Below are positions 3,531 to 29,050 of a DNA stretch of 33,368 bases, in pieces. The stretch is from positions 1 to 33,368 of the forward strand of contig CALQHT020000033.1 in assembly GCA_943330455.2 (NCBI GenBank). The letters run 5' to 3'. The notes beneath the pieces are model-generated. The model did not search any database. It was not told the DNA's origin and was given only the letters and a program-made list of their open reading frames with translations. This stretch comes from Nitrosovibrio sp. Nv4 (GTDB lineage Bacteria; Pseudomonadota; Alphaproteobacteria; Acetobacterales; Acetobacteraceae). The position numbers were made by a program, and so were the translations under genes. Position 1 is the stretch's first letter; every line of letters begins with the position of its first letter.

Positions 3531-3612
3531 TCGTCATTGCCGGACTTGATCCGGCGACCCGCGCTTCGACGGCGGGGGCGGGTTACCGGGTCAAGCTCGG
3601 CAATGACGGTAA
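3531..3612. repeat. Palindromic intergenic repeat, 'cgtcattgccgg' family, copy 1
   Basis: The left arm begins cgtcattgccggacttgatc and the right arm ends gggtcaagctcggcaatgacg. The arms pair across a G+C-rich centre. The same family recurs at 6814-6897, 16054-16132 and 29051-29150, with a relative at 21652-21769. It sits between the monooxygenase stop (3483) and the bicupin start (3721). Transcripts could form a stable hairpin here and act as a terminator or mRNA stabiliser. Confidence 0.8.
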
Positions 3613-3720
3613 GGTGACGCCGACGGGTCATTGCTTCGGCCGATTGGTCTGACCTTCGCGACCCACAACCTCCATCGGACCCGGTGACCTGACCGGGTCC
3701 TACCGCCCAGGAATCCAAGC

Positions 3721-5097: not shown

Positions 5098-5222
5098 GGA
5101 GGGAGAAAATTCTCCCCCTCCCCTTGCGGGAGGGTGTTGGGAGGAGGGGCGGTCGCGCAGGAATATTGCGTGAAACCCCTCCCCCCGCCCCCTCCCGCAA
5201 GCGGAGGGGGATAATTTTCTCC
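5098..5222. repeat. Palindromic repeat, 'ctccccttgcgggaggg' family, copy 1
   Basis: The outer arms ggagaaaattctcc and ggataattttctcc flank G/C-rich arms (ccctccccttgcgggaggg and cctcccgcaagcggaggg), giving an imperfect stem of about 45 bp around a loop near 5150-5175. Related elements lie at 7923-8080 and 33141-33242. It fills most of the 351-bp gap (4967-5317) between the cupin and the Tat-exported amidohydrolase; apart from it I see only the ribosome binding site of the next gene. Confidence 0.8.
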
Positions 5223-5317
5223 ATCGGAGCCTGTCTCCCAGGAAACATCCACCCTAACCCACCAACACCCGAGCTCGGCCGCCACCTCCGAATGCTCCGC
5301 CGACACAGGAGACAGAA

Positions 5318-6775: not shown

Positions 6776-6927
6776 TACCAATGGTTCTAACCATTGACCG
6801 ATATCGTCCCCATACCGTCATTGCCGGACTTGATCCCGCAACCCGCCCCCCGCCGTTGAAGCGTGGGTTGCCGGGACAAGCCCGGCAGTGACGGTAAGAG
6901 GGACGTTACATCGGTCAATAGTTAGGG
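6776..6927. repeat. Nested palindromic repeat (inner 'cgtcattgccgg' copy 2 plus outer arms)
   Basis: The inner part (about 6814-6897) is a copy of the cgtcattgccgg family. It is enclosed by a second inverted pair: aaccattgaccgat near 6790 and atcggtcaatagtt near 6910, which are reverse complements with one mismatch. The left outer end begins taataccaatggtt, a motif also found near 26461 and 33285 in other orientations. The element fills the gap between two convergent hydrolase genes and may serve as a bidirectional terminator. Confidence 0.75.
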
Positions 6928-7922: not shown

Positions 7923-8088
7923 CGGAGAAAAATCTCCCCCTCCCCTTGCGGGCTTGGGCCGCGAAGCGGACCAAGGCTGGGGGGAGGGGCAAGAACCCCA
8001 CTGTCGGCGCTTGCGTAACCCCTCCCCCCCAGCCTTGGTCCGCTTCGCGGCCCAAGCCCGCAAGGGGAGGGGGGAGAGTCTTTTCCGC
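7923..8088. repeat. Palindromic repeat with a stem of about 56 bp, 'ctccccttgcggg' family, copy 2
   Basis: The left arm at 7934-7989 and the right arm at about 8019-8076 are reverse complements along their whole length except for one-base differences in C/G runs. Both contain cttgggccgcgaagcggacc or its complement, itself a smaller palindrome. The loop is about 29 bases. The element lies in the 299-bp gap between the MaoC-like gene and the Amidohydro_2 gene, both on the minus strand; nothing else is recognised in that gap. Confidence 0.85.
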
Positions 8089-8121
8089 CGCGCAGCAGAT
8101 ACCTTCTTGGCTGCGGTGGGG

Positions 8122-10455: not shown

Positions 10456-10716
10456 GCGGCGAAGGAAAGGTAGCCTCGGGGCTCTGCCCCAAACCCCGCG
10501 AGGGCTTCGCCCTTCGAACCCACCAGGGGCACGGCCCCTGGACCGCGATCCACTGGGTCAGGGACAAAAGGGGGCCAACACGGACGCTGAAACGCCATGG
10601 TAGGCCCCTTTTTGTCCTTGACCCAATAATCGGCATCCAAGGCCCAGCCTTGGTGGGGGTCGAGGGGGCAAAGCCCCTCGCGGGGATTGGGGCGGAGCCC
10701 CAAGGCTTTCTCTCCA
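10456..10716. repeat. Hairpin-array palindromic element, copy A1
   Basis: A roughly 260-bp element between the divergent lpxI and enolase-superfamily genes. In order it shows three short hairpins (ggggctctgcccc; agggcttcgccct; ccaggggcacggcccctgg), a long central stem (10554-10576 with 10603-10625; 23 positions, two of them G-T wobble pairs), then three more hairpins (aaggcccagcctt; gaggggg...cccctc; ggggcggagcccc). The ends (agcct and aggct) also pair. It is nearly identical to the reverse complement of 20262-20522. The differences I noted are mainly in loops or keep pairing, which suggests selection on the folded form. The remaining parts of the 469-bp gap (10327-10795) hold only the flanking 5' regions. 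Confidence 0.85.
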
Positions 10717-10795
10717 CCACGTCGCACCGCGATGTGACCGTTACAGCGCGCCAACCCGGCGCTATGCTATCCGCTCCAACGGGAGGGAACCACCG

Positions 10796-11893
10796 ATGAA
10801 AATCACCAGCTTCGAAGCCACCACCTTGAACATTCCCGAAGACGACCCCCTGGCGAACATGCCGGAGGAAGAAGGCCGCACCCGCCCGGTCGTCATCCTG
10901 CGCCTGCGCACCGATAACGGCATCGAGGGCATCGGCCTGACCTTCTACGGCGGCAAGATGACCGGCAGCCTGCGCAAGGCGGTCGATGAACTCGCGGAAC
11001 TGACCATCGGGGAAGACCCGATGCGGATCGAGCATATCACCCGCAAACTGCGCCTCGCCGCCGGGGATTCCGCCGGTCCGGGCGGGATTTTCATGCTGGC
11101 GATCTCGGCGATCGACATCGCGCTGTGGGACATCAAGGGCAAGGCGCTGGATCAGCCGCTGTGGAAGCTGCTGGGCGGACACCGGGATCGGGTGCCGACC
11201 TATGCGTCCGGCTCGCTCCGTCGCGGTCTGACCGACAACCAGGCCCAGCGCGCGGCGCAGATTCTGGTGCAGAAGGGCTTCACAGAGATGAAGACCCAGA
11301 TGGCCCTGCCCGGCAATCCGACCGTCGCCGAGGAAGTCCGCCGCGTCCGCGTGGTCCGCGAAGCCATCGGGCCGGACATCAAGCTGATGTGCGACATCAA
11401 CCAGCGTTGGCGGCCCGAGCAGGCCATCGATATCGGCAGCCGCATCGCCGATGTGGGCCTGTTCTGGTTGGAGGACGTGACCGCGCATGACGACTATGCC
11501 GGTCTGGCGCGGGTTACGGCAGCTCTGTCCACCCCGATCGCCGGCGGCGAGTATGTCTGGGGCATCGTGCCGTTCCGCCACATGATCGAGGCTCGGTCCG
11601 TCGACATCGTCATGGTCGATATTGTCCGCGTCGGCGGCGTCACCCAATGGATGAAGGTCGCCGGCATGGCGGAGGCGTTCAACCTGCCGATCGTCAGCCA
11701 CGTGATGCCCGAAATCCTGGTCCATGTCGTCGCCGCCGCCCCGAACGGCCTGACGGTCGAATACATGCCGTGGATGCTGGCCCTGTATGAGGAAACCCCG
11801 GCCATCGAGAACGGCATGCTGGTGCTGCCGAACAAGCCGGGCCTTGGCCTGAAATTCGACGAAAAGGCCGTCGCGGCGTTCCGCGCGGGGTAG
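10796..11893 (+). CDS. Mandelate racemase / muconate lactonizing enzyme family protein
   Basis: A 365-residue enolase-superfamily enzyme. The metal ligands are D200 (LMCDIN), E226 (WLEDV) and E252 (AGGEYVWG). A D-H dyad typical of the mandelate racemase subgroup is present (D275 in MVDIVRVGG and H302 in SHVMPE). The other catalytic element, normally K-x-K, reads K166-T-Q168, so the second lysine is glutamine. The enzyme probably abstracts a proton alpha to a carboxylate, as in acid-sugar dehydratases or racemases; the substrate is unknown. GGGAGGG about 10 bases upstream supports the ATG. The stop codon lies within an imperfect 26-bp tandem duplication (11879-11904 and 11905-11930). Confidence 0.88.
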   Translation: MKITSFEATTLNIPEDDPLANMPEEEGRTRPVVILRLRTDNGIEGIGLTFYGGKMTGSLRKAVDELAELTIGEDPMRIEHITRKLRLAAGDSAGPGGIFMLAISAIDIALWDIKGKALDQPLWKLLGGHRDRVPTYASGSLRRGLTDNQAQRAAQILVQKGFTEMKTQMALPGNPTVAEEVRRVRVVREAIGPDIKLMCDINQRWRPEQAIDIGSRIADVGLFWLEDVTAHDDYAGLARVTAALSTPIAGGEYVWGIVPFRHMIEARSVDIVMVDIVRVGGVTQWMKVAGMAEAFNLPIVSHVMPEILVHVVAAAPNGLTVEYMPWMLALYEETPAIENGMLVLPNKPGLGLKFDEKAVAAFRAG

Positions 11894-11930
11894 ATGGATC
11901 GGCCTTCCGCGCGGGGTGAACGGATCGGCG
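11879..11930. repeat. 26-bp imperfect tandem duplication across the stop codon
   Basis: Two adjacent 26-bp units, each starting ttccgcgcggggt and ending ggatcggc plus one base, cover the last codons and stop of the enolase-superfamily gene and the bases just after. They differ at four or five positions. A slipped-strand duplication is the simplest explanation; the second copy is untranslated. Confidence 0.75.
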
Positions 11931-11936
11931 TATGCC

Positions 11937-12029
11937 GGTCGTGTCTCGGTTTGAGCGGCTCTGCTCTCCGTCCAATCGGCAGCCCGGTAGGAAGGCCGTG
12001 CTGCCCTCTGCTCAACCTGAGACACGACC
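11937..12029. terminator. Large stem-loop between the enolase-superfamily gene and the toxin-antitoxin pair
   Basis: Arms 11937-11956 (starts ggtcgtgtctcgg) and 12010-12029 (ends gagacacgacc) are reverse complements at 18 of 20 positions. A smaller inverted pair, ggcagc (11978-11983) and gctgcc (12000-12005), is nested in the loop. It may terminate the upstream transcript, insulate the toxin-antitoxin promoter or be a structured RNA. There is no T-tract, so classic intrinsic termination is doubtful. Confidence 0.5.
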
Positions 12030-12050
12030 CGCTTGACGCAAAGACCGCAG

Positions 12051-12080
12051 CTTGCTATCGATATCAATATTGATAGCAAG
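12051..12080. promoter_or_regulatory. Palindromic operator of the toxin-antitoxin operon
   Basis: The 9-bp arms cttgctatc (12051-12059) and gatagcaag (12072-12080) flank an A/T-rich centre, and the 14-mer tatcaatattgata inside is a perfect palindrome. This is the only strongly A/T-rich palindrome near, and it lies 24 bp before the antitoxin ATG. Ribbon-helix-helix antitoxins typically bind such sites and repress their own operon, so this is the probable autoregulatory operator, overlapping the promoter. The role is inferred from position and symmetry. Confidence 0.7.
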
Positions 12081-12104
12081 CGACGATGCCGCGAAGGATT
12101 TGAC

Positions 12105-12371
12105 ATGACGACCGAACAGGTGCTGCTCCGCCTGCCCGACGATTTGGTGCGGCGGTTTAAGCGTGCCGTGCCAACGCGGGAGCGCAGCGCGTTCGTGCGA
12201 CACTTGCTGGAAGCCGCGTTGCCGCCGGAAGATGGCGACCACGACCCATTGTATCTGGCCGCCCTAGCGGTGGAGCGCGACACCGCGCTGACCGAGGAGA
12301 TGGAGGTCTGGGAGACGGCCACACTGACCGACGGCCTGACCGTCGAGGACCCCCCCAAGCGGCCCAAGTAA
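12105..12371 (+). CDS. Ribbon-helix-helix antitoxin (MazE-like)
   Basis: An 88-residue protein. The N-terminal segment EQVLLRLPDDLVRRFKRAVP, followed by RSAFVRHLLEAAL, has the strand-helix-helix pattern of ribbon-helix-helix DNA-binding antitoxins. The acidic C-terminal half (EEMEVWETATL...) would bind and neutralise the toxin. The start at 12105 is preferred over an in-frame start at 12033, because the longer form would translate through the palindromic operator at 12051-12080. The toxin GTG follows the stop codon with no gap, the usual antitoxin-first arrangement, so the two are translationally coupled. Confidence 0.85.
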   Translation: MTTEQVLLRLPDDLVRRFKRAVPTRERSAFVRHLLEAALPPEDGDHDPLYLAALAVERDTALTEEMEVWETATLTDGLTVEDPPKRPK

Positions 12372-12728
12372 GTGGCACGCCCACCCGACGGGCCTGCATC
12401 GGCCGGACCGCTGCGTGGGTCGATCTGGTGGGTTGACCTCGATCCGACACGAGGGGCAGAGATTCGCAAGACCCGTCCGGCCCTTGTTCTGAGTGCTGAT
12501 GCCCTGAACCGCGTCCGGCGGACGGTGGTTATTGTGCCGCTATCCACAGGACCGGAGCCGCGACCGCCCATCGTGGTTGCGGTGCCGTCGGCGGGTGTGG
12601 GGTCTGTGGCGGTATGCGACCAGGTACGAGCGGTGGATCGTACGCGACTGACCCGGATGGTCGGGACCCTGTCCACCGAGGATCTGCGGGCGGTTGAAAC
12701 CGGCGTGAGGTCAGTGCTGGCGCTCTAG
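12372..12728 (+). CDS. MazF/PemK-family endoribonuclease toxin
   Basis: A 118-residue protein with the MazF/PemK core: RGSIWWVDLDPTRGAEIRKT, then RPALVLSAD, VVIVPLST, and a C-terminal VCDQVRAVDRTRL. MazF-type toxins cut mRNA at short sequence motifs and cause growth arrest when the antitoxin is degraded. Translation appears to begin at a GTG directly after the antitoxin TAA; no ATG lies upstream of the conserved core. The first 14 residues are Pro/Gly/Ala-rich and may be an extension not seen in other members. Confidence 0.9.
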   Translation: MARPPDGPASAGPLRGSIWWVDLDPTRGAEIRKTRPALVLSADALNRVRRTVVIVPLSTGPEPRPPIVVAVPSAGVGSVAVCDQVRAVDRTRLTRMVGTLSTEDLRAVETGVRSVLAL

Positions 12729-12842
12729 CCGGGGGCCACGAGGTTGCTCCGCTCGGCCTCACCCGGATGATGGCGCCAGTTGCGGTCATGCGGTGGGCAG
12801 CGCCATGTCGCACATGGGTCGGATGCGTTGGAGTATGACCGC

Positions 12843-13625
12843 CTATTCAAACCCCGGCCGCGGCACAGTGCTCATCAAGGTCCGCCCGAACCCGCCGTCC
12901 ACGCAGATGTCCTCCCCGTTCACATAACCGGCCCGCTCGCTGGCCAGATAGATCACGACCTCGGCGATATCGTCCGGAGTCGCCACCCGCCGCAACGGGA
13001 TCGCGTTTGCGCGCTTCTCGGCCACGCCGGGGGCCAAATAGAACGCCTCGCTCATGGGCGTGCGGACCAGGCCGGGGCTAACCACGTTGCTGCGCACACC
13101 TTGCGGCCCCCATTCCAGCGCGATCTGCTGGGACAGCATCACCACGCCCGCCTTGCTGACCGAGTAGGCGCCGCTCGCCGCCTGGGGAAAGCGTGACGCG
13201 ATCGAGGCGATATGCACGATCGCCCCCTTACCGCGCGCCAGCATCCCCTGCCCGAAAGCCTGCGCGCACAGGAAATATCCGGTCAGGTTGACCGACATCA
13301 GCCGGTTCCATTCCTCCAGGCTGAGACTGGCGAGCGGCCCGGGGCGCAGAATGCCGGCATTGTTGACCAGGATGTCCACCGGCCCGGCCTGCGTGGCCGC
13401 GGCACGCACGCTGGCCTCATCGGCGATGTCGCAGGCGATCGCCCGCGCTTCCACGCCGACATCCCGCAACGCCGCCAACGTCTTGTCGCAGCCGGCCATG
13501 TCGCGATCCAGCAGGACCGGCGTCACGCCCAGCTTTGCCAGACCCACGGCCACCGCGCGCCCGATACCGCCGCCACCGCCCGTGATCGCCGCTGTCTTGC
13601 CGGAAAGGCCGAGCCAATCTGTCAT
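12843..13625 (-). CDS. SDR family oxidoreductase
   Basis: A 260-residue classical short-chain dehydrogenase/reductase. The cofactor loop is TGGGGGIG (15-22), with D40 at the end of beta-2 pointing to NAD rather than NADP. NNAG is at 88-91, the catalytic serine is probably S141, and Y154-x-x-x-K158 (YSVSK) is intact. The C-terminal GYVNGEDICVDGG block is typical. The ATG at 13625 is preceded by AAGGACC; a much longer in-frame upstream frame exists but has no SDR sequence. It converts an alcohol to a ketone or the reverse; the substrate is unknown. It is convergent with the toxin gene. Confidence 0.92.
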   Translation of the reverse strand: MTDWLGLSGKTAAITGGGGGIGRAVAVGLAKLGVTPVLLDRDMAGCDKTLAALRDVGVEARAIACDIADEASVRAAATQAGPVDILVNNAGILRPGPLASLSLEEWNRLMSVNLTGYFLCAQAFGQGMLARGKGAIVHIASIASRFPQAASGAYSVSKAGVVMLSQQIALEWGPQGVRSNVVSPGLVRTPMSEAFYLAPGVAEKRANAIPLRRVATPDDIAEVVIYLASERAGYVNGEDICVDGGFGRTLMSTVPRPGFE

Positions 13626-14083
13626 GAAGAAGGTCCTTGGATGATGTGGGGAAACCGGGCGAGCACCCGACCGGGATCGACAATGCGGCCCACCACCATG
13701 CCGACGCCCCACCCCGCCGACGGTGCCGCCATAACGCCCCCAGCGGGGGTTAGGCAACTCAGATCGCGCACTCAACCACGCCGCTTCCAGCGGCATTGCA
13801 ACCGGTCTGCCGAATCGGAACGTGCCGCGGTCAGCGGCACCCCCCCGGCGTTCATACCATCGTGGTCGTACCCGCAATGCGCAAAATGGCGCCGAGGGCG
13901 CAGCGGTCCCTGCATACGGCCGCCCGCATGCTCAAACGACCCGCCGGCGCACCGAATCATCGCCGGCGTCAATACTTTGTTAACCATTGGCGGCGTAACC
14001 CTGCGCCTGTCGTGCGGCGGATCCGACGCCGCAACGCAGCCCACCCCCCGCACCTACCCCACCGGGCCATTTGGGATCGCACC
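13626..14083. other. 458-bp divergent gap without recognised genes
   Basis: This lies between the divergent SDR and diguanylate cyclase genes and should hold both promoters. I see no repeat of the three main families here and no frame with convincing coding character. A relatively A/T-rich segment (caatactttgttaaccatt, 13971-13989) about 95 bp before the cyclase ATG is a plausible promoter area, but I cannot assign boxes. Confidence 0.4.
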
Positions 14084-15142
14084 ATGCCGCCTGCCCCGCT
14101 GCCTTGGAACGAGGCCCATCGCCTGGAGGCGCTCCGGTCCTATGAAATCCTGGACACCGCCTGCGAGGCAAACTTCGACAGCATCGCGCGTCTTGCCGCC
14201 TGGCTGACCGCCTGCCCGATCTCCCTCGTTTCCCTCGTCGACCAGGATCGTCAGTGGTTCAAGGCGCGCCACGGCCTGAACATAACGCAAACAACCCGCG
14301 ACCAGGCGTTTTGCGCGCACGCGATCCTCGACCCGTCGCGGCCGCTGGTCGTCCCCGACGCGACCCAGGACGCGCGATTCGCCGACAGCGAGCTCGTGAC
14401 CGGGCAACCCGATATTCGGTTCTACGCGGGGATCCCGCTGGTCAGCCCGGATGGATTGCCGCTGGGCACGCTATGCGTCATCGACCACACGCCCAGGCAG
14501 TTGGCACCCGACGTGCTCAACGCGCTGACCGTGCTGGCGCAATCCGTGACGACCAATCTCGAACTGCACCGATCCATGCGCCAGATGCAACGCATCGCAT
14601 TGACCGACGGCCTGACCGGCCTGCCGAACCGACGCGCCTTCATGGAGGCTTTGGGTCAGGGCATCGCTCGCCAGCGCCGCGACAGCCAGCCGTTTTCCGT
14701 CCTCTATCTGGACCTGGACGGTTTCAAGCAGATCAACGACCGACACGGGCATGCGACCGGCGATCGGGTCCTGGCGGAGGTTGCCAGTGTCTTGCGGGCG
14801 TCCGTGCGCCGCACGGATACCGCCGCGCGGATCGGCGGTGATGAGTTCGCGGTCGTGTTGGTGGGCGGGGATGGCGCCGAGGCATCCCTGGTCGGAGAGC
14901 GCCTCCGCGCCAGGCTGGAGCAACGCATGGCCGCCAATAAATGGGCGGTCACGGCCTCGGTCGGCGCGATCAGCTTCCTGACGCCGCCCAACAGTGAGGA
15001 AGCGGCCCTGGCGTTGGCGGACGATCTTTTGTACCACGCCAAGGCCCTGGGGAAGAACCGCGTGCTATCCAGCGACTTCCCGACCGCCGGCAGTTTGATC
15101 ACGCGCCGGGAGATCGAGGCGACGCCCGCTATCATCCCATAG
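14084..15142 (+). CDS. GAF-domain diguanylate cyclase (GGDEF)
   Basis: A 352-residue cytoplasmic protein. Residues about 25-160 form a GAF sensor of the kind often found before GGDEF domains (SLVSLVDQDRQWFKAR, FCAHAIL, RFYAGIPLVSPDG, GTLCVID). Residues about 165-335 are a GGDEF domain starting DGLTGLPNRRAF. The active-site GGDEF (251-255) is intact, so it should make cyclic di-GMP from two GTP. The inhibitory I-site R-x-x-D is present (RRTD, 242-245, five residues before GGDEF), predicting product inhibition. No EAL domain or membrane segment is seen. The ATG at 14084 is chosen because the conserved PLPWNEAHRLEAL start follows it; the longer upstream frame looks non-coding. It is convergent with the luciferase-like gene, with a 34-bp gap. 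Confidence 0.92.
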   Translation: MPPAPLPWNEAHRLEALRSYEILDTACEANFDSIARLAAWLTACPISLVSLVDQDRQWFKARHGLNITQTTRDQAFCAHAILDPSRPLVVPDATQDARFADSELVTGQPDIRFYAGIPLVSPDGLPLGTLCVIDHTPRQLAPDVLNALTVLAQSVTTNLELHRSMRQMQRIALTDGLTGLPNRRAFMEALGQGIARQRRDSQPFSVLYLDLDGFKQINDRHGHATGDRVLAEVASVLRASVRRTDTAARIGGDEFAVVLVGGDGAEASLVGERLRARLEQRMAANKWAVTASVGAISFLTPPNSEEAALALADDLLYHAKALGKNRVLSSDFPTAGSLITRREIEATPAIIP

Positions 15143-15176
15143 GCGCCCAGGCGGGCTCCCCCTGGGCCGAGACCGT

Positions 15177-15995
15177 CTATCCGACCAGCGCGCCGGCCCC
15201 TTCGATGACCGCGTCCCAGTCATCCACGTTGCGATCCTGCGGCGCGATCAGCAGATGCTCCACCCCGATGGCGGCGTAGCTGTCCACCAACGCCCGCAGG
15301 ACGCCGCGGTCCGTGCCGTCCCACTGCACCCGCATCGACACCGTGAAGTCCTTGCTCGGCCGGCCCGCCCGCAGCCGATCGATCAGCGGGGCGGCCTCGG
15401 CCGGCGTGTGACCGCTGCCATGCCAGCCGTCGCCGATGCGGATGGTGCGCTTGATGGCGGCATCGGAACTGCCGCCGAACCATAGCGGGATTGGACTGAC
15501 GGGCATCGGCGTCATGGTCATCCCCTCGATCACCGACGGGATATAGCGGCTCTTGAACGTCACCGGGTCTTCCGACCAGACGGCGCGCATCATCGCCAGG
15601 CCTTCGTCCAACCGCCGCCCGCGCTCCTTGAACGGCACGCCCAGGGCCGCGAATTCTGGCTCCAGCCAGCCGGAGCCAGCGCCCAGGATCAGCCGCCCCT
15701 CGGAGAAATTATGCAGAGTCGCCAATTCCTTGGCCAAGGGCAGCGGGTGGCGCATCGGCAGCACCAGAACCGAGGTTCCCAGCTTAACCCGCTTGGTAAC
15801 GGCGGCGGCCCAGGTCAGGCTGAGCACCGGATCGAAGAACAGCGGGGATCGGGGGAATTTGTCACGCGGAACGATGATGTGCTCGCTGACCCAGACGTCT
15901 TCCAGACCCAGGGCCTCGGCCCGTTCCGCGTGACGCCGGACCAGGGCCGGGGTCGCCTGATCGCCCGCATGAGGCAAATGGATGCCGTATTTCAT
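15177..15995 (-). CDS. LLM-class (luciferase-like) flavin/F420-dependent oxidoreductase
   Basis: A 272-residue TIM-barrel protein of the bacterial luciferase superfamily. The N-terminus MKYGIHLPHAGDQ, then LEDVWVSEHIIVP, and VKLGTSVLVLPMRHPLPLAKELATLHNFSEGR (split here as LGTSVLVLPMRHP and LAKELATLHNFSEGR), plus IPLWFGGSSDAA, match the TIGR03619-like F420-dependent group. Members use F420 or FMN; alphaproteobacterial members are more often FMN-linked, so the cofactor is uncertain. The substrate is unknown. AAGGACA precedes the ATG at 15995. Confidence 0.88.
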   Translation of the reverse strand: MKYGIHLPHAGDQATPALVRRHAERAEALGLEDVWVSEHIIVPRDKFPRSPLFFDPVLSLTWAAAVTKRVKLGTSVLVLPMRHPLPLAKELATLHNFSEGRLILGAGSGWLEPEFAALGVPFKERGRRLDEGLAMMRAVWSEDPVTFKSRYIPSVIEGMTMTPMPVSPIPLWFGGSSDAAIKRTIRIGDGWHGSGHTPAEAAPLIDRLRAGRPSKDFTVSMRVQWDGTDRGVLRALVDSYAAIGVEHLLIAPQDRNVDDWDAVIEGAGALVG

Positions 15996-16053
15996 GGTCT
16001 TGTCCTTTGCATCGGCATGATCGGTGGACAGATTGGCAGACAGCCTGCCCTTG

Positions 16054-16132
16054 CCGTCATTGCCGGGCTTGACCCGGCAACCCGCTCCCTACCGTCGAAG
16101 CGTAGGTTGCCGGGTCAAGCCCGGCAATGACG
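16054..16132. repeat. Palindromic repeat, 'cgtcattgccgg' family, copy 3
   Basis: Left arm cgtcattgccgggcttgacc and right arm gggtcaagcccggcaatgac are perfectly complementary over 20 bases or more, with ggcaacccgct/aggttgccgg continuing the symmetry around a loop near 16085-16105. It lies in the 285-bp gap between the GlcG-like and LLM genes, both on the minus strand. The rest of the gap (16133-16280) shows nothing I recognise. Confidence 0.85.
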
Positions 16133-16280
16133 AGGGGGGCTAGGCATGGGTCACTGTGTCAGCAAATCGGTATGACGGGCAGAACAAGTTTTGCCGGCAA
16201 AGTGTCGTGCGGCGTCGTGGACCGGCCCCAAGGGGCGGACCAAAAGGCGGGCCAGGGTCGGCGCCGCCGCGACACGTCGT

Positions 16281-16709
16281 TCAGGTCGGGTCGGCGGTCA
16301 GACCTGCCGCGGCGATTCCGGCCAGGGCGGCGGCCTCGTCATTGTCCGACGTATCGCCGGTCACGCCGACCGCGCCAATGAAGCCTCCATCGCCCTTGAT
16401 CAGCACGCCACCCGCCACCGGGATCAGCGAGCCGCCCACGGCATGGGTCACGGCGGCGACGAAATGCGGGCGTTCCTCGGCGCGCTTGCCCAGAGTGCGG
16501 GAACCGACGCCCATCGCCAGCGCGCCATGCGCCTTGCCGATCGCGATGTCGGACCGCCGCAGGGAGGTGCCGTCCTCCGCCGCATAGGCTTTCAGCACGC
16601 CGCGCGCATCCAGCACGACCACCCCCATCGGGGCGAATTTGTTGGCACGGGCGTGTGCCAGGGCGGCGGTGACGATGGTCTGAGCCTGGGCAAGTGTCAG
16701 TGCGGCCAT
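16281..16709 (-). CDS. GlcG/HbpS family protein
   Basis: A 142-residue protein of the GlcG/HbpS family (PF03928). Evidence is LTLAQAQTIVTAALAHAR, then PMGVVVLDARG, a central IAIGKAHGAL and the glycine-rich VAGGVLIKGDGGFIGAVGVTG block. Family members include a heme-binding sensor accessory protein (HbpS) and GlcG of glycolate operons; many are of unknown function. AAAGGAAG precedes the ATG. The acyl-CoA-dehydrogenase-fold monooxygenase gene ends 40 bp upstream on the same strand, so the two probably form an operon. Confidence 0.88.
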   Translation of the reverse strand: MAALTLAQAQTIVTAALAHARANKFAPMGVVVLDARGVLKAYAAEDGTSLRRSDIAIGKAHGALAMGVGSRTLGKRAEERPHFVAAVTHAVGGSLIPVAGGVLIKGDGGFIGAVGVTGDTSDNDEAAALAGIAAAGLTADPT

Positions 16710-16749
16710 AAGAGAGCTTCCTTTGTCGATTGGATCGTGTGGGGACCGC

Positions 16750-17931
16750 CTACAGGAACGTGCCGTCGGGATCGCCGTTGAACATCACCCGGCCGACCGC
16801 CTCGAAATGCGAGTCGCGGGACTGGATCTGCTGGGACAGGGTGTGAATGTCGCGGAATCGCCGCTCGAACGGGGTGCCGGGGAAGATGGCCGAAGTGCCG
16901 GCGGCCTTGAAGACGTAGTCCACCACTTCGACCGAGACCTTGATCGCCTGTGCGCATCCCAGCCGCACCCGCGCCCTGTCGGCGGGTCCGATCGGATCGA
17001 TGTCATCCGCGTGATCCCACACATCCTTTAGGATTTCGACCAGATAGGCGCGGGCCGAACCGAGATTGGCTTCCCGGTGCGCCACATCGGACTGCACCGA
17101 AGGGCTGTCGGCCAGACGAGGCAGGCCCCGCGGCACTTTCTCGCCGGCCAGTTCGATGAAGGCGTCCAGCATGGCGCGGGCGATCCCGAAGGCCACGCCG
17201 GCAACGCCCACCGCATACAGGCCTTGCATCGGGAACGCATAGAGCGGGCCGGGGTCGCGGCGCAGGCTGGGGTCTTCTCTTGTGCCGGTGTATGCCTCGG
17301 CGACGAACAGGTCGGACAGGGAATAGCCCTCCGACGCGGTGCCGCGCATGCCGATCGGGTTCCAGTTGGCGATCAGGCTGGCCTTTGCCTTGGGGAACAG
17401 CAGGGACCGCACGGTCGGGCGGCCGAACCGGTTCAGGCGGAGCGATCCGTCCGGCTCGATGACCTGGCAATGCGCGCCCATCCAGGTGGCCTGGCGGCAG
17501 CCGCTGGCGAAATTCCATTCGCCGCTGACCCGGTAGCCGCCTGGCACCGCGGTGGCGCGATACTGGTTGGGCGGGCCCCAGGCGATGATGGCGCGCGGGT
17601 CGGAATAGATTTCCCGCGCGGTTTCCAGCGGGATGAACGGCGCGATCAGGGCCGAACTGTTGGCGACGAACAGGTTCCAGCCGACGGAGCCGTCATGGCG
17701 GGCGATTTCCTCGATCGCGCGGAGATAGACCCAGGGCTCGATCTGGTCGCCGCCGACCGAGAGCGGCAACAACATGCGCGCCATGCGGGCTTCGTGGATC
17801 TGGGACAGGAGGGGCTCGGGGATCCGCTGGGTCTGCTCGATCTCGTTGGCCGCCGCGGCGATGGCCGAGCCTAGGTCGCGAGCCCGGGCTATGGGGCCCA
17901 GCACTGGGGAAGGCGCGCTGAGGTGGTTCAT
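16750..17931 (-). CDS. Acyl-CoA-dehydrogenase-fold flavin-dependent monooxygenase
   Basis: A 393-residue protein with the acyl-CoA dehydrogenase fold: helical N-terminal domain (IPEPLLSQIHEARMARMLLP), a middle beta domain (GGYRVSGEWNFASGCRQATW, then NWNPIGMRGTASEGYSL) and a C-terminal helical domain. The pattern fits the group D monooxygenases (HpaB-like oxygenase components, DszC-like) better than true acyl-CoA dehydrogenases. Such enzymes use reduced flavin from a partner reductase to hydroxylate aromatics or heteroatoms. No reductase gene is adjacent. It is divergent from pgeF, with a hairpin-array element between the two. The downstream GlcG-like gene is probably co-transcribed. Confidence 0.85.
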   Translation of the reverse strand: MNHLSAPSPVLGPIARARDLGSAIAAAANEIEQTQRIPEPLLSQIHEARMARMLLPLSVGGDQIEPWVYLRAIEEIARHDGSVGWNLFVANSSALIAPFIPLETAREIYSDPRAIIAWGPPNQYRATAVPGGYRVSGEWNFASGCRQATWMGAHCQVIEPDGSLRLNRFGRPTVRSLLFPKAKASLIANWNPIGMRGTASEGYSLSDLFVAEAYTGTREDPSLRRDPGPLYAFPMQGLYAVGVAGVAFGIARAMLDAFIELAGEKVPRGLPRLADSPSVQSDVAHREANLGSARAYLVEILKDVWDHADDIDPIGPADRARVRLGCAQAIKVSVEVVDYVFKAAGTSAIFPGTPFERRFRDIHTLSQQIQSRDSHFEAVGRVMFNGDPDGTFL

Positions 17932-17985
17932 TTGGCGGTCCGTGGTCTGTCTGGGCAGGATTAGCGGCGTAGGATTGGGGTGTTG

Positions 17986-18267
17986 TCAATTGGGTGCGGG
18001 AAAGGGCGGGGCTTCCGCCCCGGACCCCGACCGGGGCTTTGCCCCTGGACCCCACCAAGGGCGACGGCCCTTGGAACCGGAACATTGTTGCCTTGAGGGA
18101 TGGGGCCCTACACCGACCTCTGACCGTCCGTGTAGGGCCCCATCCCTCAAGGCAACAAACGAATCGCATTCCAAAGGCCGTCGCCTTTGGCGGGTCGCAA
18201 GGGGCCATGCGGGCAGAGCCCTGGCGGGGTCCGGGGCGGAGCCCCGCCCTTCCCCGCACCCAATTGA
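17986..18267. repeat. Hairpin-array palindromic element, variant B
   Basis: A 282-bp element whose outermost 27-base arms (17986-18012 and 18241-18267) are complementary with one mismatch. Inside, hairpins such as ggcggggcttccgcccc, ccggggctttgcccctgg and caagggcgacggcccttgg precede a perfect 29-bp central stem (18085-18113 with 18130-18158, loop 16 bases). Matching hairpins follow (ccaaaggccgtcgcctttgg; ggggcggagcccc). The plan equals that of the elements at 10456-10716 and 20262-20522, but the core stem is a different sequence. It lies between two divergent genes. Confidence 0.88.
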
Positions 18268-18325
18268 CCAATCTCCCCAAACCCCGGCACATCCTCCCGC
18301 ACCTCTGTCCGGAGTCCCTGCCATC

Positions 18326-19111
18326 ATGGCGCCTCCCCGATTCCCGACCATGATCGACCCGCTGCGTTCCCCCGCCATCGGCTTGCCGCACGGCTTCTTC
18401 ACTCGCCAAGGCGGCGTGTCCGGCGGCGCGTTTGCCAGCCTGAACTGCAGCCTGTCCGGCCTCGACGATCGCGACCATGTGCTGGAAAACCGCGCCCGCG
18501 CCGCCCGCGCCCTGGATGCCGATCCGGCCCGGATGGTCGGGCTGACCCAGGTGCACGGCGCCGTCGCGGTGACCGTAACCGAGCCATGGCCACCCGGCGC
18601 CGGCCCGCGCGCGGACGCGATGGTAACCGACCGTCCTGGACTCGCGCTGGGGATCGTAACCGCCGACTGTGCCCCGGTTCTGTTCGCCCATGCGGCCTCC
18701 GGCATCGTCGGCGCGGCCCATGCCGGCTGGCGCGGCGCCCTGGCCGGCGTGATCGAGGCCACAATCGCCGCCATGGCAGCCCTGGGGGCCGATCGCGCCG
18801 GAATCGCGGCCTCGGTGGGACCCTGTATCGCCGCCCCGTCCTATGAGGTCGCCGCCGATCTGCGCGATGCGTTCCTGGCGCATGACCCGGAAAACCAACG
18901 ATTTTTCGGCGACGGCCAGCGGGAGGCACGCTGGCAGTTCGATCTCGCGGGCTATTGTGCCATGCGCTTGCGGACGGCCGGCGTGGGCCAGGTCGACGTG
19001 ATCGGGGCCGATACGCTCACCGAGGAAGACCGCTTCTTCAGCCATCGCCGCCGCACCCTGGCCGGCGGCGGACCGATCGGACACCAGATTTCGGTGATCG
19101 TCGCCCGCTAG
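18326..19111 (+). CDS. pgeF: Peptidoglycan editing factor PgeF (YfiH/laccase-domain protein)
   Basis: A 261-residue protein of the YfiH/DUF152 family. The three metal-binding residues appear in their usual contexts: H77 (LTQVHGA), C115 (TADCAPVLF) and H132 (AHAGWRG). The N-terminal HGFFTRQGGVSGGAFASLN and C-terminal FFSHRR blocks are also diagnostic. In E. coli the protein removes L-Ser misincorporated at position 1 of the peptidoglycan stem; homologues were earlier called polyphenol oxidases. The start at 18326 is preferred (GGAG at 18311); an in-frame ATG at 18350 is possible. A lipoprotein gene follows after 196 bp on the same strand. Confidence 0.93.
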   Translation: MAPPRFPTMIDPLRSPAIGLPHGFFTRQGGVSGGAFASLNCSLSGLDDRDHVLENRARAARALDADPARMVGLTQVHGAVAVTVTEPWPPGAGPRADAMVTDRPGLALGIVTADCAPVLFAHAASGIVGAAHAGWRGALAGVIEATIAAMAALGADRAGIAASVGPCIAAPSYEVAADLRDAFLAHDPENQRFFGDGQREARWQFDLAGYCAMRLRTAGVGQVDVIGADTLTEEDRFFSHRRRTLAGGGPIGHQISVIVAR

Positions 19112-19208
19112 AGCGGTTTCACCCCGACTGGAAACGAAAAACCGCTATGGCTCGTTGTCTGATCGCATGATTCACACGCTGTGATGTTCCGCTCAGCATG
19201 ATCATGCT
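19112..19208. repeat. Hairpin and 14-bp perfect palindrome downstream of pgeF
   Basis: Arms agcggttt (19112-19119) and aaaccgct (19139-19146) form a stem directly after the pgeF stop codon. A separate perfect palindrome, agcatgatcatgct, lies at 19195-19208. The combination resembles REP-like intergenic repeats widespread in alphaproteobacteria. It may mark the 3' end of the pgeF transcript. The rest of the gap up to 19307 shows nothing else. Confidence 0.65.
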
Positions 19209-19307
19209 CCAGTCCCAGCCGGTCGGCCTGGCCGTGACCGGCTCGACAGAACCGCATCGCGCTGCCCCCCCTGGCGGCAGCGGCGCCTATCTGCTTGAAG
19301 TGCCACC

Positions 19308-20243
19308 ATGTTCCGACGTTTGATCCCCTGCCTGATGTTTCCCCTGCTGGTGCTGAGCGCCTGTGGCGATCTGCCCGAACCATTCCTCGGCAATCCCGGC
19401 GCAAATGCTCGCCGTCTGGCACGTCCGCTCTCGCCCATGCTGGCGGTGCCGTTTCCCGGCAATGCCATGCTCAGCGACCCGGCCGGGCGCGCGCTGGCGG
19501 AGGATCTGGCGACCGCCCTGCAGAACGCGGACGTTCCGGCCCTGGCGCGGGAGCCACGCACCAATGACTGGCGGCTGATCACCAGCGCCGAACAACGGGG
19601 CCGGACGGTGGTACCGATCTATGTGGTGCAGAACCCGGAAGGGGCCGAACAGGGCACCACCGAGGGCAGCCCCGTGCCGACCGAGGCTTGGGCGGCCTCC
19701 GACAGTGCCACCCTGAACGCGGTTGCCGCCGAAGCCGCGAACAAGGTCGCCGACCTGCTGACCAGTATCCGCGTGGCCCGCGACAAGGCGGACCCCAACA
19801 GCCTCTATAATCGTGTGCCCAAGGTCATGGTGGCCGAGGTGACCGGGGCCCCGGGCGACGGCAATGCCTCCCTGACCCGGCAGATGCGGGCGAAACTGGC
19901 GGCCTATGGGCCGTTGATCCAAACCTCGCAGTCGGGCGCCGATTTCGTCGTGAAGGGCAAGGTCGTCGTTGTGTCCATACCCAACCGGCAGCAGCGGATC
20001 GAGATCCAATGGTACGTGACCACCGCCAGCGGCGACGAACGCGGCCGGGTGATCCAGTTGAACGAGATCCCCGCCGGCACGCTCGACCGGTTCTGGGGGG
20101 ACGTCGCGGTGGTCGTCGCGGCGGAGGCCTCGGCCGGGATCAACGACGTGCTGAACCGCCAATCCGGTCGGGAACCGCCACGCGGCGAAGCGGTGCCGGT
20201 TCAGCTCGACCCGGCCCAAGGGTCCGCCGCCGCTCGAAACTGA
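19308..20243 (+). CDS. Outer-membrane lipoprotein of unknown function
   Basis: A 311-residue protein with a lipoprotein signal: MFRRLIPCLMFPLLVLSAC, with the lipidated cysteine at position 19 in an LSAC lipobox. Glycine at +2 gives no inner-membrane retention signal, so outer-membrane anchoring is likely. The mature part has no motif I can name. It contains a predicted alternating helix/strand pattern with AEDLATALQNADVPAL, then VPKVMVAEVTGAPGDGN, and VKGKVVVVSIPNRQQRIEIQW. It follows pgeF on the same strand, though with a 196-bp gap carrying a hairpin. A cell-envelope role is likely from the lipobox; anything more specific would be a guess. Confidence 0.85.
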   Translation: MFRRLIPCLMFPLLVLSACGDLPEPFLGNPGANARRLARPLSPMLAVPFPGNAMLSDPAGRALAEDLATALQNADVPALAREPRTNDWRLITSAEQRGRTVVPIYVVQNPEGAEQGTTEGSPVPTEAWAASDSATLNAVAAEAANKVADLLTSIRVARDKADPNSLYNRVPKVMVAEVTGAPGDGNASLTRQMRAKLAAYGPLIQTSQSGADFVVKGKVVVVSIPNRQQRIEIQWYVTTASGDERGRVIQLNEIPAGTLDRFWGDVAVVVAAEASAGINDVLNRQSGREPPRGEAVPVQLDPAQGSAAARN

Positions 20244-20261
20244 TGCCGGCCGGGGTGATCA

Positions 20262-20522
20262 GGGGGGGGGAGAAAGCCTCGGGGCTCCGCCCCGGACCCC
20301 GCGAGGGGCTTTGCCCCCTCGACCCCCACCAAGGCTGGGCCTTGGATGCCGATTATTGGGTCAGGGACAAAAGGGGGCCTACCATGGCGTGGCAACGTCC
20401 GTGTTGGCCCCCTTTTGTCCCTGACCCCATGGATCGCGGTCCAGGGGCCGCGCCCCTGGTGGGTTCGAAGGGCAAAGCCCTCGCGGGGTTTGGGGCGGAG
20501 CCCCGAGGCTTTCTCTCCGCCC
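20262..20522. repeat. Hairpin-array palindromic element, copy A2 (inverted relative to A1)
   Basis: Near-identical to the reverse complement of 10456-10716. The central stem gggtcagggacaaaaggggg+cc (20358-20379) pairs perfectly with 20406-20427, whereas copy A1 has two wobble positions. The flanking hairpins (ggggctccgcccc; gaggggctttgccccctc; aaggctgggcctt; ccaggggccgcgcccctgg; agggcaaagccct; ggggcggagcccc) match those of A1 in reverse order. It fills the gap between the convergent lipoprotein and dehydrogenase genes and could act as a bidirectional terminator. Confidence 0.88.
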
Positions 20523-20550: not shown

Positions 20551-21438
20551 TCAGGTGCGGACTTCCTCGTTCAGCGCCGTCTCATAGACCCGGATCACCG
20601 ACGACGAATCCGACGTGCCCAGTCCCATGCCGCGCGCCATGCGCATCAGGTTCATGACCTGCGGGGCGACCATGCCGGGCACGCCCAGCTCGTCCGCCAT
20701 TTCCAGGGCCAGGCGCAGGTCCTTGTGCGCCAGGTCCAAAGCGAAGGTCGGCGCGAAATCGCCCTTGAACGCCTTGTTCGACATGTTGCCGTAGCCGTTC
20801 GACATGCCGCTGGCATTGCGGATCACCGCGTCCAGCTTCTTCAAGTCGATGCCGGACCGCTTGCCCATCATCAGGGCCTCCGCCGCCGCCGCCGCGTTGC
20901 AGAACGCCAGCATGTTGTTGATCAGCTTGGCGGTGGAGCCCATGCCGATATCGCCGACATGCACGACCTCTCCGCTGAACGACCGCAGCAGCGGCAGTTG
21001 CTGCTCGTAGACCGCGGTCTCACCGCCCACCATGATGACGATGGTGCCATCCGTGGCGCGCGAGGTGCCGCCGGACACCGGCGCTTCCAGCATCTGGATG
21101 CCCTTGGCCGCCATGCCCGCCGCGACCCGCTTGGCGGTGGCCGGGGAGTTGGTGGACAGATCGACGAACACCGTGCCGGGCTTCGCGTTCTCCGCGATGC
21201 CGTCCTTGCCGAGGGTCACTTCCTCGACCACGCGGGGGATCGGCAGGGAGGTGATGACCACGTCGCACCGTGCCGCCACATCGGCCACCGAGGTCGCGGA
21301 GGACGCGCCGAGATCGGTGCAGGCCTTCACCGCGTCAGGGCTGAGGTCGAACACGATGACCTCATGGTTGGTGTTGCGGATGATGTTGCGGCACATGGGG
21401 CCGCCCATGTTGCCCACGCCGATGAACCCGACTTTCAT
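20551..21438 (-). CDS. NAD(P)-dependent beta-hydroxyacid dehydrogenase (3-hydroxyisobutyrate dehydrogenase family)
   Basis: A 295-residue protein with the full family signature: GVGNMG at residues 7-12 after the start MKVGFI, the substrate loop APVSGG at 119-124, and the catalytic lysine K171 in STAKLINNML with N175. The family oxidises 3-hydroxyisobutyrate, tartronate semialdehyde (in the reducing direction) or similar beta-hydroxyacids. The residue after the first strand (D31 in VFDLSP) suggests NAD preference. The exact substrate cannot be told from context. GGGAGAAGATGGT precedes the ATG at 21438. It is convergent with the lipoprotein gene. Confidence 0.9.
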   Translation of the reverse strand: MKVGFIGVGNMGGPMCRNIIRNTNHEVIVFDLSPDAVKACTDLGASSATSVADVAARCDVVITSLPIPRVVEEVTLGKDGIAENAKPGTVFVDLSTNSPATAKRVAAGMAAKGIQMLEAPVSGGTSRATDGTIVIMVGGETAVYEQQLPLLRSFSGEVVHVGDIGMGSTAKLINNMLAFCNAAAAAEALMMGKRSGIDLKKLDAVIRNASGMSNGYGNMSNKAFKGDFAPTFALDLAHKDLRLALEMADELGVPGMVAPQVMNLMRMARGMGLGTSDSSSVIRVYETALNEEVRT

Positions 21439-21597: not shown

Positions 21598-21651
21598 GCA
21601 TTCACACATATCGTGATGGGAGGCCGATTTTCTCGGTGCAGGGGCCAATCC

Positions 21652-21769
21652 TCACCGTCATGGACAGGCTTGACCCGGCCACCCGCCCCGAGTTTTGACC
21701 AACCATTGCAAACACAGGTGTTTCCGCCATTGCGTGGGTGTCCGGGTCAAGCCCGGCCATGACGGTGAG
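21652..21769. repeat. Palindromic repeat related to the 'cgtcattgccgg' family, with an enlarged loop
   Basis: Arms tcaccgtcatggacaggctt... and ...aagcccggccatgacggtga are complementary over about 33 bases with a few mismatches. The loop contains a separate sequence including aaccattgc and a small cacaggtg inverted motif, longer than in the other copies. The gap 21439-21810 otherwise holds only the decayed fragment described separately. Confidence 0.75.
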
Positions 21770-21810
21770 GGCAAAGTTGACGCCCAAGAGCCCCACAGAC
21801 CGAACCCAAC

Positions 21811-23048: not shown

Positions 23049-25616
23049 TCAGCGGAGTTCCAGGGCGACGGACGCAGCCTGACCCGCCGCGATAACGGCG
23101 TCCTGGGTGGCCTTGCGACCGGTTTCGTCCTCGGCCGTCACCCGATAGCGCCCGGCCGGGACGACCCGAGTGATCTCCGCGCGGGTCCCGGCGGCAAACA
23201 AGGCGGGTTCCACCTGGGTGCCATCCGGCGTCAGGCCGAAGACCGTCACCAGCACATTGTCCGGCGGCGCCCCAGCCAGGGGGGAGGCTTTCACCGTCAT
23301 CCGCCCACCTCCCAGATCGATCCGCTGGGTCGATGCGGCGCCCGAGGTCACGGTGACGCGCTTGCTGGCGCGGGCAGCACCGGAGACCAGGGTCACCTCC
23401 CAGTCCCCCGGCGCGAGAGTCACGGTCGGACGCGCCTCGGCGTGCTCGGACAGGGCAGCAGCAGAGGTCGCGTCCCCTTGCAGGCGAACCGGTGTCACCG
23501 TCCATTGCGCATCCCGCCAGTCGTCGAACAGTGGCGTACCCGGGGCCAGGGCGGCTTCGAGCGTCAGTTTTCCGGGTGCGAAAGCGGCGACATCGACTCG
23601 CAATACGGTGTCCGTCCCGGGCGGGACGATGATCGTCCGGCGCAGGCGCGTGCCGCCGGAGACCAGCACGACCTCCCACTCGCCCGGCAACAGGGTGACA
23701 ACCGGGCGGGCGGCGGCCATGTCGGTCAGGGCAGGACCGGCGGTCAGGCCCCCCAGCAGGCGGATCGGCGCCACGGTCCAGGTCGCATCGCGCCAGTTGT
23801 CGAACAGCAGCGCCCCCGGGGCGGGCGCTGCTTCCAGGGTCAGTTTCCCGGCCGGCAGCAGGATGCGCAGGATCGTCGTGGCGCCGTCCCGCACCGTGCC
23901 TTCGGCGGAGAGGTGCGCGCCGCCGACCAGAAGGGTCGCGGTGTAGGTGCCGGCTGGGGTCAGGAGGGTCGGGCGGGCAACCGCGTCCACCGAGCGGGAG
24001 TCCGCGCCAGAACCGGGACCGGCTGAACCGGGGTTGGCTGAACCGAGACGGCCAGAACCGGGACCGCCCGGATTGGGACCGCCCGGATTGGGACCGCCCG
24101 GATTGGAGCCACCCGGTTTGGGACCGCCCGGGTTGGGACCGCCCGGATTGGAGCCACCCGGGTTGGGGCCACCCGGGTTGGGGGTCAGCCGCCAGGACAA
24201 CTCCGTGCCCCCGGCAATCGGGTCGGCCTTGTCGTCCGCGGCGGCTTCCAGGGTGATCCGGCCCAGCTGCAGGCTCAGCTCCAGGCGCGTACCGGTGCCG
24301 GGGGCGATCCTTGTCTCGGCCTGGGCGGTATGGCCACCGGTGGCGACGCCGATCCGATATCGGCCCGGGGCCAGCGCCAGAGTCGGCGTGGTTCCCGTCG
24401 GCGGTTCAGCCAGGGCCCGCTGTCCATCCAGCGGCGTGAAGCTCCAGGTCAGAGGCTGGTTCAGATCGGCATCGGCCAGACGCAGGCCCTGCCCGGCGAT
24501 CAGCGACAGATCCAGCCGACCCAGGTCGATGCGCACGGGGATTGCGGCACTCGGGGGATCGCCGACCGCCACGGTCTGGCTGGACGAGGTGTTGGCGCCG
24601 GTCAGTTCCACCCGGTAGCGACCGCGGGGCAACACCACGGCGATGCCCTCCCCGCCGCCCTGGTAGACAGGATCGGCCACGCCCTCGGCCAGAATCCGCC
24701 AGGACAGCGGTACCCCAACCAAGGTATCGGTGCCCGCGGCGACCGCGACGAAGGACACCGGAACAGGTCCCGGAGGCGGCTCTGGCGCGCGCACCGGTTC
24801 CGGCAGAGGCGCGGGGGCGGCTTGCGGCGGAGGCGACGGTTCGACCGGGCGAGGCCGGCTGGTTCCAGCCGTCCCGGCCAGCGCCGTCAGAGCCGAGGAC
24901 AGTCCGGCGGCATCCGCGGCGGAGGCCATCTGCCCGCCTCCCTGTTCGGCGATACAGGACAGCGCCTTGGTTTCCTCGGGCTTCAGGCCGAACCCGACGA
25001 CATGGACGACCAGCCTGGCATTGGCGGCGCGCAGATCGTGGGCGACCGCGCAGGGGTCCTCGTTGCAGGTTTCCAACCCATCGCTGACCAGGAAGATCGT
25101 GCCGCCGGCCGCGGGCAGCAGGCCGGCGGCATGGCGCAGAGACGCCGACAGGGGCGTGCGTCCGCGGGCACGCAGTTCCGCCAGGCGACGCTTGGTGGTC
25201 GCCAGATCGATGACGCCGAGCGGGATGATGGTTTCGATATCGCGGCAGTCGGATTCGCGCCGATGCCCGTAGGCCACCAGGGCCAGGCGTGCGTCCGGCT
25301 TCCAGCCCGCCACCTGTTCCAGCACCACCCGGCGCGCGGCATCCAGCCGGGTTTCATTGCCGATTCGCGCGGCCATGCTGCCGGAGGCGTCGATGATCAT
25401 CACCGAGGCCCCGGGCGGCTGGTTCGGTCCTTGGGGTGGGACCGGCGGCGGAACCTGTGGCGGAACCCTGGGCAGGATTTGGGCGGATGCCGGCCAGGAC
25501 GCCACGGACAGAGCCGCGAAGATCAGGCAAAGGCCGATCCGGATGGCGCGCGACACTGGCCGAGATCCGGTCCTGGATCGATGCGGGTCGGCTGCGACCG
25601 GGTTGGTGTGCCACAT
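23049..25616 (-). CDS. Large exported von Willebrand A domain protein with repeated beta modules
   Basis: An 855-residue protein. Residues about 22-46 are a signal peptide (ending SWPASAQ), followed by a proline-rich stretch (VPPQVPPPVPPQGP). A vWA domain (about 70-248) has a complete MIDAS: DASGS 76-80, T154 and D179. After a Pro-rich linker comes a series of beta-sandwich-like modules that resemble PEGA/carboxypeptidase-regulatory-like repeats. They are interrupted at about 480-525 by a collagen-like linker of NPGGP/NPGGS units. Two modules near the C-terminus (starting GKLTLEAAPAPG and GKLTLEAALAPG, each about 90 residues) are clear duplicates. The ATG at 25616 has GGGAGCG upstream; the longer frame runs into the divergent gene. 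Metal-dependent protein binding outside the cytoplasm is likely, but the partner is unknown. The coiled-coil gene downstream is the obvious candidate. Confidence 0.88.
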   Translation of the reverse strand: MWHTNPVAADPHRSRTGSRPVSRAIRIGLCLIFAALSVASWPASAQILPRVPPQVPPPVPPQGPNQPPGASVMIIDASGSMAARIGNETRLDAARRVVLEQVAGWKPDARLALVAYGHRRESDCRDIETIIPLGVIDLATTKRRLAELRARGRTPLSASLRHAAGLLPAAGGTIFLVSDGLETCNEDPCAVAHDLRAANARLVVHVVGFGLKPEETKALSCIAEQGGGQMASAADAAGLSSALTALAGTAGTSRPRPVEPSPPPQAAPAPLPEPVRAPEPPPGPVPVSFVAVAAGTDTLVGVPLSWRILAEGVADPVYQGGGEGIAVVLPRGRYRVELTGANTSSSQTVAVGDPPSAAIPVRIDLGRLDLSLIAGQGLRLADADLNQPLTWSFTPLDGQRALAEPPTGTTPTLALAPGRYRIGVATGGHTAQAETRIAPGTGTRLELSLQLGRITLEAAADDKADPIAGGTELSWRLTPNPGGPNPGGSNPGGPNPGGPKPGGSNPGGPNPGGPNPGGPGSGRLGSANPGSAGPGSGADSRSVDAVARPTLLTPAGTYTATLLVGGAHLSAEGTVRDGATTILRILLPAGKLTLEAAPAPGALLFDNWRDATWTVAPIRLLGGLTAGPALTDMAAARPVVTLLPGEWEVVLVSGGTRLRRTIIVPPGTDTVLRVDVAAFAPGKLTLEAALAPGTPLFDDWRDAQWTVTPVRLQGDATSAAALSEHAEARPTVTLAPGDWEVTLVSGAARASKRVTVTSGAASTQRIDLGGGRMTVKASPLAGAPPDNVLVTVFGLTPDGTQVEPALFAAGTRAEITRVVPAGRYRVTAEDETGRKATQDAVIAAGQAASVALELR
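24050..24180. repeat. 15-bp tandem repeats encoding Pro-Gly-Gly linkers
   Basis: About eight or nine units of a 15-bp sequence (such as ccgcccggattggga) encode repeats of N-P-G-G-P/S, with K in one place, inside the von Willebrand A gene. Alternation of ggattgg and ggttggg subunits shows higher-order duplication. The number of units may vary between strains through slippage without changing the frame. Confidence 0.85.
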
Positions 25617-28764: not shown

Positions 28765-28905
28765 CTCGGGGCTCCTTTCTGGGATGGGGACAACGATGGG
28801 TCGTGGTACTTGTGTCGGCCAGGCGGGCAGACAGGCTGTCCAAGCCATGGAATGATCGGCGACGCTCCACGATAACCGCTCCATCTGGCGGGTCGCCCGC
28901 GCCCA

Positions 28906-28994: not shown

Positions 28995-29050
28995 TGGCGA
29001 GACAAGTGCCCAACACCAAATGGAGCCGTTATGATTGCGCGTCGCCGTGG

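Follow-up and report, generated by a model that had tools for sequence, protein, structure and literature searches.

A high-copy family of nested palindromes of the MITE/ERIC kind, with arms probably matched and inverted at the DNA level, in a member of the Acetobacteraceae

The distribution of enterobacterial repetitive intergenic consensus (ERIC) sequences is patchy between species. Bacterial miniature inverted-repeat transposable elements (MITEs) have been described as many-copy, non-coding sequences that measure 70-300 bp, have inverted ends and adjoin coding sequences; repetitive extragenic palindromic sequences (REPs) are given as 20-40 bp long, with RAYT transposases as the presumed agents of movement for the GTAG group (PMC3733652). 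The arms of inverted repeats are reported to be homogenised, and the spacer between them inverted, by template switching (PMC8604942), which is also reported to create compensatory changes in RNA genes (PMC8794818). In this study, we analysed a palindromic repeat present as two inverted copies in a stretch of 33,368 nt, hereafter the window (contig CALQHT020000033.1 of assembly GCA_943330455.2, Nitrosovibrio sp. Nv4, placed in the Acetobacteraceae). The explanation that we favour is that the two copies belong to a dispersed, high-copy, non-coding repeat of the MITE/ERIC kind, each copy an imperfect palindrome of ~250 nt, with arms homogenised and inverted at the DNA level, probably by template switching.

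The original prediction, made from the window alone, described two near-identical hairpin arrays in opposite orientation about 10 kb apart. A repeat search of the window confirmed them to within about 15 nt of the predicted positions: the inverted arms at 10464-10731 and 20251-20518 are 268 nt long, 91% complementary and separated by 9519 nt, and a third copy sits between them (Table 1). The hairpin plan was as predicted; however, the lowest-energy fold of either copy is one long imperfect hairpin spanning the entire element (-203.4 kcal/mol for copy 1 and -233.6 kcal/mol for copy 2, for 291 nt each). The corresponding z-scores were -12.5 and -14.1, and 0 of 200 shuffles folded as well for either copy. 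Since the arms contain small self-complementary hairpins, one sequence can fold either as the hairpin array or as the single long hairpin.

Both copies are members of a large family. In the host genome (G000; 6.48 Mb, 470 contigs) a 29-nt arm motif, searched with up to 3 mismatches, was found at 82 sites, 41 per strand, while the reversed control motif gave 0. These sites represent about 77 elements, five pairs of sites each falling within one element. In a DNA search of G000, all 40 scored candidates (from 211 first-look candidates) matched, the window copy itself at 100% identity and the others at 86-94%. A simple recent duplication, which the original prediction had linked to a case of only two copies with no relatives anywhere, was therefore rejected. 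Matches to the window variant were detected in 11 of the 23 other genus members searched, with 18 to 183 first-look candidates each, and in none of the remaining 12; a member of a different family in the class, G036, gave one weak match (E 4e-4). Twenty elements from G007, G014, G042 and G040, one of which (L274) is cut by a contig end, have the same plan frame and a similar apical region. Their central stems are unrelated in sequence and still paired. The architecture of the element consists of arms built from smaller palindromes, a central stem that is variable yet well paired, and a less variable apical region. Searches of open-licence PMC papers gave nothing recognisable as this repeat family.

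It had been predicted that differences between the copies preserve pairing, as expected if the folded form were under selection, perhaps as RNA. The first half of this claim holds family-wide for the central stem. In an alignment of 56 of 62 copies (six of unusual length were left out), 86 central-stem cells were changed on both sides, against a shuffled mean of 26.3; 0 of 500 shuffles reached the observed value, and slid controls gave no more than 13. For the whole element the excess was smaller (115 against 53.4 in shuffles), because variants of the outer arms are mostly uncoupled. A perfect variable stem of 11-12 bp was present in 30 of the 56 copies and had 16 different sequences, 10 of them confined to one copy each, while random pairing of stem halves yielded a mean of 3.7 perfect stems and a maximum of 12 in 2000. 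Six orthologous copies were compared with those of a sister species (G017, with 84-94% identity over aligned stretches; about 520 contigs, very likely a metagenome-assembled genome, MAG): 14 stem cells were changed on both sides and 19 had an unpaired side, indicating that matching is frequent and incomplete. In 7 of 63 elements of G000 (9 of the 63 not fully typed) the outer hairpin is of type A on both sides, which is visible arm homogenisation and one of the two signatures of template switching.

Ectopic gene conversion, together with homologous recombination between copies, could also spread matched stems, in which case the few original paired changes would be old and incidental. Some stems are indeed identical between several copies (TTGGGGAAGCAT, for instance, is found in 3), and on two G017 contigs the flanks of one G000 copy are joined to those of another (see below). 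However, the number of different perfect stems, including those found in a single copy, and the paired differences between orthologs suggest that paired changes arise locally too, and we consider conversion and recombination an unlikely explanation for the stem variants.

The second half of the claim, selection on an RNA fold, was not borne out. Selection on a single RNA strand would be expected to leave more G-U than A-C mismatches. On the strand examined, single mismatches in the 56 copies were 156 G-U and 154 A-C. By region (53 copies, three arm-swapped copies being left out of these tallies only) the G-U and A-C counts were 66 against 91 for the outer arms, 17 each for the middle and 28 against 27 for the central stem; the five apical pairs alone showed a G-U excess (27 to 4), flipped-loop copies bringing G-U at one pair. 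The two-sided central-stem changes were divided between 44 of transition type and 42 of transversion type (by tally; the 42 include one U-G pair). Nor is orientation fixed: relative to the arms, 34 copies have the loop in F orientation and 21 in R, with one undecided, and the arms themselves occur in both orientations. A structured non-coding RNA or messenger 3' element with one functional strand would account for the strong fold, the covariation, the recurring apical sequence and the apical wobble excess; but strand-specific wobble is missing overall, tandem settings have no fixed orientation (8 copies run as their genes and 16 opposite, by tally), and the window had no Rfam hit at gathering thresholds. 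We judge this reading very improbable; an RNA role is unsupported for the family and unlikely. Good arm pairing need not imply a working RNA, and the data do not require selection on a fold.

Comparison with the sister species gave the second signature of template switching, inversion of the spacer. At five of six sites common to G000 and G017, arms and/or loop are inverted while the flanks align (by eye): the whole element at L067, the arms at L006 and L091 (for L091 the two flanks were drawn from two G017 contigs), the loop at L026, and the loop plus outer hairpin at L107. One site, L027, is unchanged, and a seventh, L114, with half an element at a contig end, was left out of the count. Assembly error could contribute to these differences. 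A site-specific recombinase that inverts loop or arms, as in phase-variable invertons, would also produce inverted arms at shared sites and a mixture of loop orientations. The inversion boundaries vary among copies (loop only, arms only, outer hairpin), however, and are ill-suited to one fixed crossover site; PF01797 was the only family looked for and no recombinase gene was sought. We regard such a recombinase as scarcely credible.

The original prediction had further proposed that inverted copies could drive inversion of the 10 kb between them. The inversions found lie inside the elements, and in two G017 contigs an element connects flanks that belong to different copies in G000: C245 (L208) joins those of L046 and L078, and C185 (L206) those of L091 and L025. 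These joined flanks look as if they came from recombination between copies, or from MAG misassembly. An association of the element with synteny breakpoints was considered and set aside. Among the matches listed, the two flanks of L046, and likewise those of L091, are on separate contigs or widely spaced in other genus genomes, which is uninformative because gene order is heavily shuffled.

Sites without the element were also found. The flanks of 38 of the 62 copies, distinct from the six shared sites, were searched in G017 and gave 19 matches, 8 with both flanks; the remaining 11, which had one flank only, lay at contig ends or were paralogous, were not counted. In 7 of the 8 two-flank cases G017 carries 43-174 nt where G000 has the element, and in the eighth 605 nt of other DNA. 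Empty orthologous sites of this kind are expected for a MITE, with gain and loss not polarised. Because contigs often break off at elements, the search under-counts occupied sites, and the 8 sites give no share of occupied ones. The convergent junction that holds copy 2 measures 70-189 nt in G003, G045, G009, G010 and G011 against 362-406 in G000, and is longer in seven other relatives; BLAST detected no family member in any of these 12 junctions. At the site orthologous to that of copy 3, G014 has 190 nt between the aligned genes against 445 in G000, and BLAST gave no family match in the G014 junction. One of the long copy-2 junctions (L236, G041:C162, about 2400-2700) contains a strong fold of -213 kcal/mol in 300 nt, which has no BLAST match to the repeat family.

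With regard to genes, 62 copies (62 distinct cores) were located via the arm-A motif, by which copies with two B arms would be missed, and placed among the predictions of a simple codon-usage gene caller. None of the 62 lies inside a predicted gene, although a few predicted gene ends reach into the element edge, by up to 38 nt. The family is short, non-coding, intergenic, bounded by inverted termini and present in many copies, as MITEs are. Flanking genes are convergent for 22 copies, tandem for 24 and divergent for 11, with a single flank for 5. The convergent setting is enriched (22/57 copies against 72/486 gene pairs, Fisher p 5e-5; p 0.001 against the share of intergenic length), the background in both comparisons containing the elements themselves. 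The median distance was 22 nt to a gene 3' end (n=69) and 79 nt to a 5' end (n=50).

This placement is compatible with selection for a two-way transcription terminator, or an insulator, at the ends of genes, the compensatory changes in the hairpin being retained by selection on the fold. A consensus end with a CTTTCTTTCC-like tract and one terminator-like site per window copy in a simple scan agree with such a role, but the same scan averaged 0.7 and 0.5 sites in shuffles. The T run after the stem that marks intrinsic terminators was lacking, TTTT being found at only 2 of 123 element ends. Divergent copies, the balance of G-U and A-C mismatches, and the many orthologous sites without the element also argue against it, and we think it improbable that termination shaped the family. 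Location at gene 3' ends is tolerated and may serve as a transcription boundary; termination or insulation could follow from the placement as a by-product.

Template switching is preferred here because arm homogenisation and spacer inversion occur together. During replication, a nascent strand would fold back and one arm would be copied from the other; such fold-back copying would homogenise the arms and flip the spacer. If an arm is copied from its partner, pairing would persist without selection on an RNA. The copies themselves may have been spread by a transposase or by recombination. The covariation, more tentatively, may be mainly mutational: one arm would be recurrently rewritten from the other and the loop flipped, so that stems drift and stay paired across copies and species. 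Functional structure is, by standard practice, argued from covariation. With nearly 80 copies in the one genome, orthologs in a sister species and an even ratio of G-U to A-C mismatches, the family offers a natural test of covariation from template switching alone, and a warning for non-coding RNA searches in GC-rich genomes. The family is, in addition, a source of small inversions and perhaps of rearrangements in which two copies take part.

Several observations weigh against this explanation. Ectopic conversion would likewise spread matched stems, and since some stem variants are common to several copies, the counts of paired change are not independent events. Between orthologs, cells with an unpaired side exceed paired changes. 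The balance of G-U and A-C is not uniform over regions, the apical pairs departing from it, and for the central stem, selection for a strong DNA or RNA hairpin may be at work. The G000 and G017 assemblies are fragmented, and repeat misassembly could fake some of the inversions and joined flanks. Evidence of mobility is also incomplete. In some copies the sequence continues into another inverted end module, GGCGACGCGCAACAATAAC...; this module is also found at the ends of unrelated hairpins, one of them in the window (Table 1), and looks like the terminal repeat of a mobile element. Among 40 matches to this outer end in G000 there was no inverted pair 0.5-10 kb apart, and among 9 in the genus no pair on one contig; assemblies that break at repeats limit this search for an autonomous relative with the same termini. 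No consistent target-site duplication was detected in the flanks of both-ended elements or at the 8 element-free sites, where the boundary of a duplication is not placeable because the flanking intergenic DNA is too diverged. PF01797 (Y1/RAYT transposase) is absent from G000, G014 and G017; it was found in 5 of 33 genus genomes, including G007, which is also rich in copies.

Two narrower origins were considered and rejected: a MITE derived from an insertion sequence with a surviving parent, as none of the outer ends matched in G000 and the genus stand as an inverted pair at the spacing of a transposase gene, and a RAYT-driven REPIN, in view of the three genomes without a Y1 transposase. In copies L005 and L006 of G000, palindromy runs past the outer end module into apparently unique flanks, and in L005 it reaches the TGA that ends each convergent gene.

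Table 1. Coordinates of the palindromic elements and associated features in the window.
Feature	Position	Strand	Remarks
Copy 1, palindromic element core	10464-10710	+	arm A first, loop in F orientation; flanking genes divergent
Copy 1, variable central stem, left half	10554-10576	+	read from sequence
Copy 1, apical region	10577-10602	+	ACACGGACG...CGCCATGGT type
Copy 1, central stem, right half	10603-10625	+	read from sequence
Copy 2, element core	20272-20518	-	inverted relative to copy 1
Copy 2, central stem, first half	20406-20429	-	
Copy 2, central stem, second half	20357-20379	-	
Copy 2, neighbouring gene	19308-20243	+	convergent with the gene below
Copy 2, neighbouring gene	20551-21438	-	convergent with the gene above
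Copy 3, diverged subfamily	17985-18268	+	plan as in copies 1 and 2; flanking genes divergent
Copy 3, outer arms	17985-18027/18226-18268		
Copy 3, central stem	18085-18117/18126-18158		
Different 189-nt hairpin	28858-29046	.	bounded by outer end module GGCGACGCGCAACAATAAC...

The window contains other repeats. A second intergenic repeat of ~97 nt, CGTCATTGCCGG...CCGGCAATGACG, was found at 3532-3615, 6805-6901, 16044-16140, 21650-21771 and 29051-29147; its CGTC tag and head-to-head layout resemble those of the CGTC-tagged alphaproteobacterial REP dimers, as far as these are described in the passages cited (PMC3733652). A third, of CCCCCTCCCCTTGCGGGAGGGG type, lies at 5105-5225, 7927-8095 and 33146-33190 and includes a 54-nt inverted pair (96%) at 7936-8073. 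A 27-bp direct tandem repeat (ACGTGACCGCGGTCACGACAACACCCC) is located between predicted genes at 29238-29372, and 15-bp repeats at 24015-24194 encode an NPGGP-rich linker in a predicted gene (23049-25400, minus strand).

Among known systems, intrinsic bidirectional terminators share with this family a GC-rich stem between convergent genes; the elements described here are far longer, lack TTTT at 121 of 123 ends and also occur between divergent genes. REP, BIME and REPIN sequences are likewise extragenic palindromes abundant in one genome, but the present element is of ~250 nt, and a Y1/RAYT gene is found in G007 and not in G000, G014 or G017. Closer, as compared by description, are ERIC/IRU, RUP, NEMIS and YPAL, which are also non-coding and gene-adjacent, with inverted termini and many copies, and of which ERIC is patchy between species as well. 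The present family differs from them in that no target duplication or transposase was found for it, the arms themselves are made of palindromes, the central stem differs by copy and species yet stays paired, and the apical loop flips. It is a family of nested palindromes, MITE/ERIC-like, in which matching and flipping of arms at the DNA level is unusually clear. Template-switch (quasipalindrome) mutation has the same two signatures, arm homogenisation and spacer inversion (PMC8604942); it is a mutation process and not a family of elements, whereas in the present case the two are found repeatedly, in a bacterial repeat of many copies.

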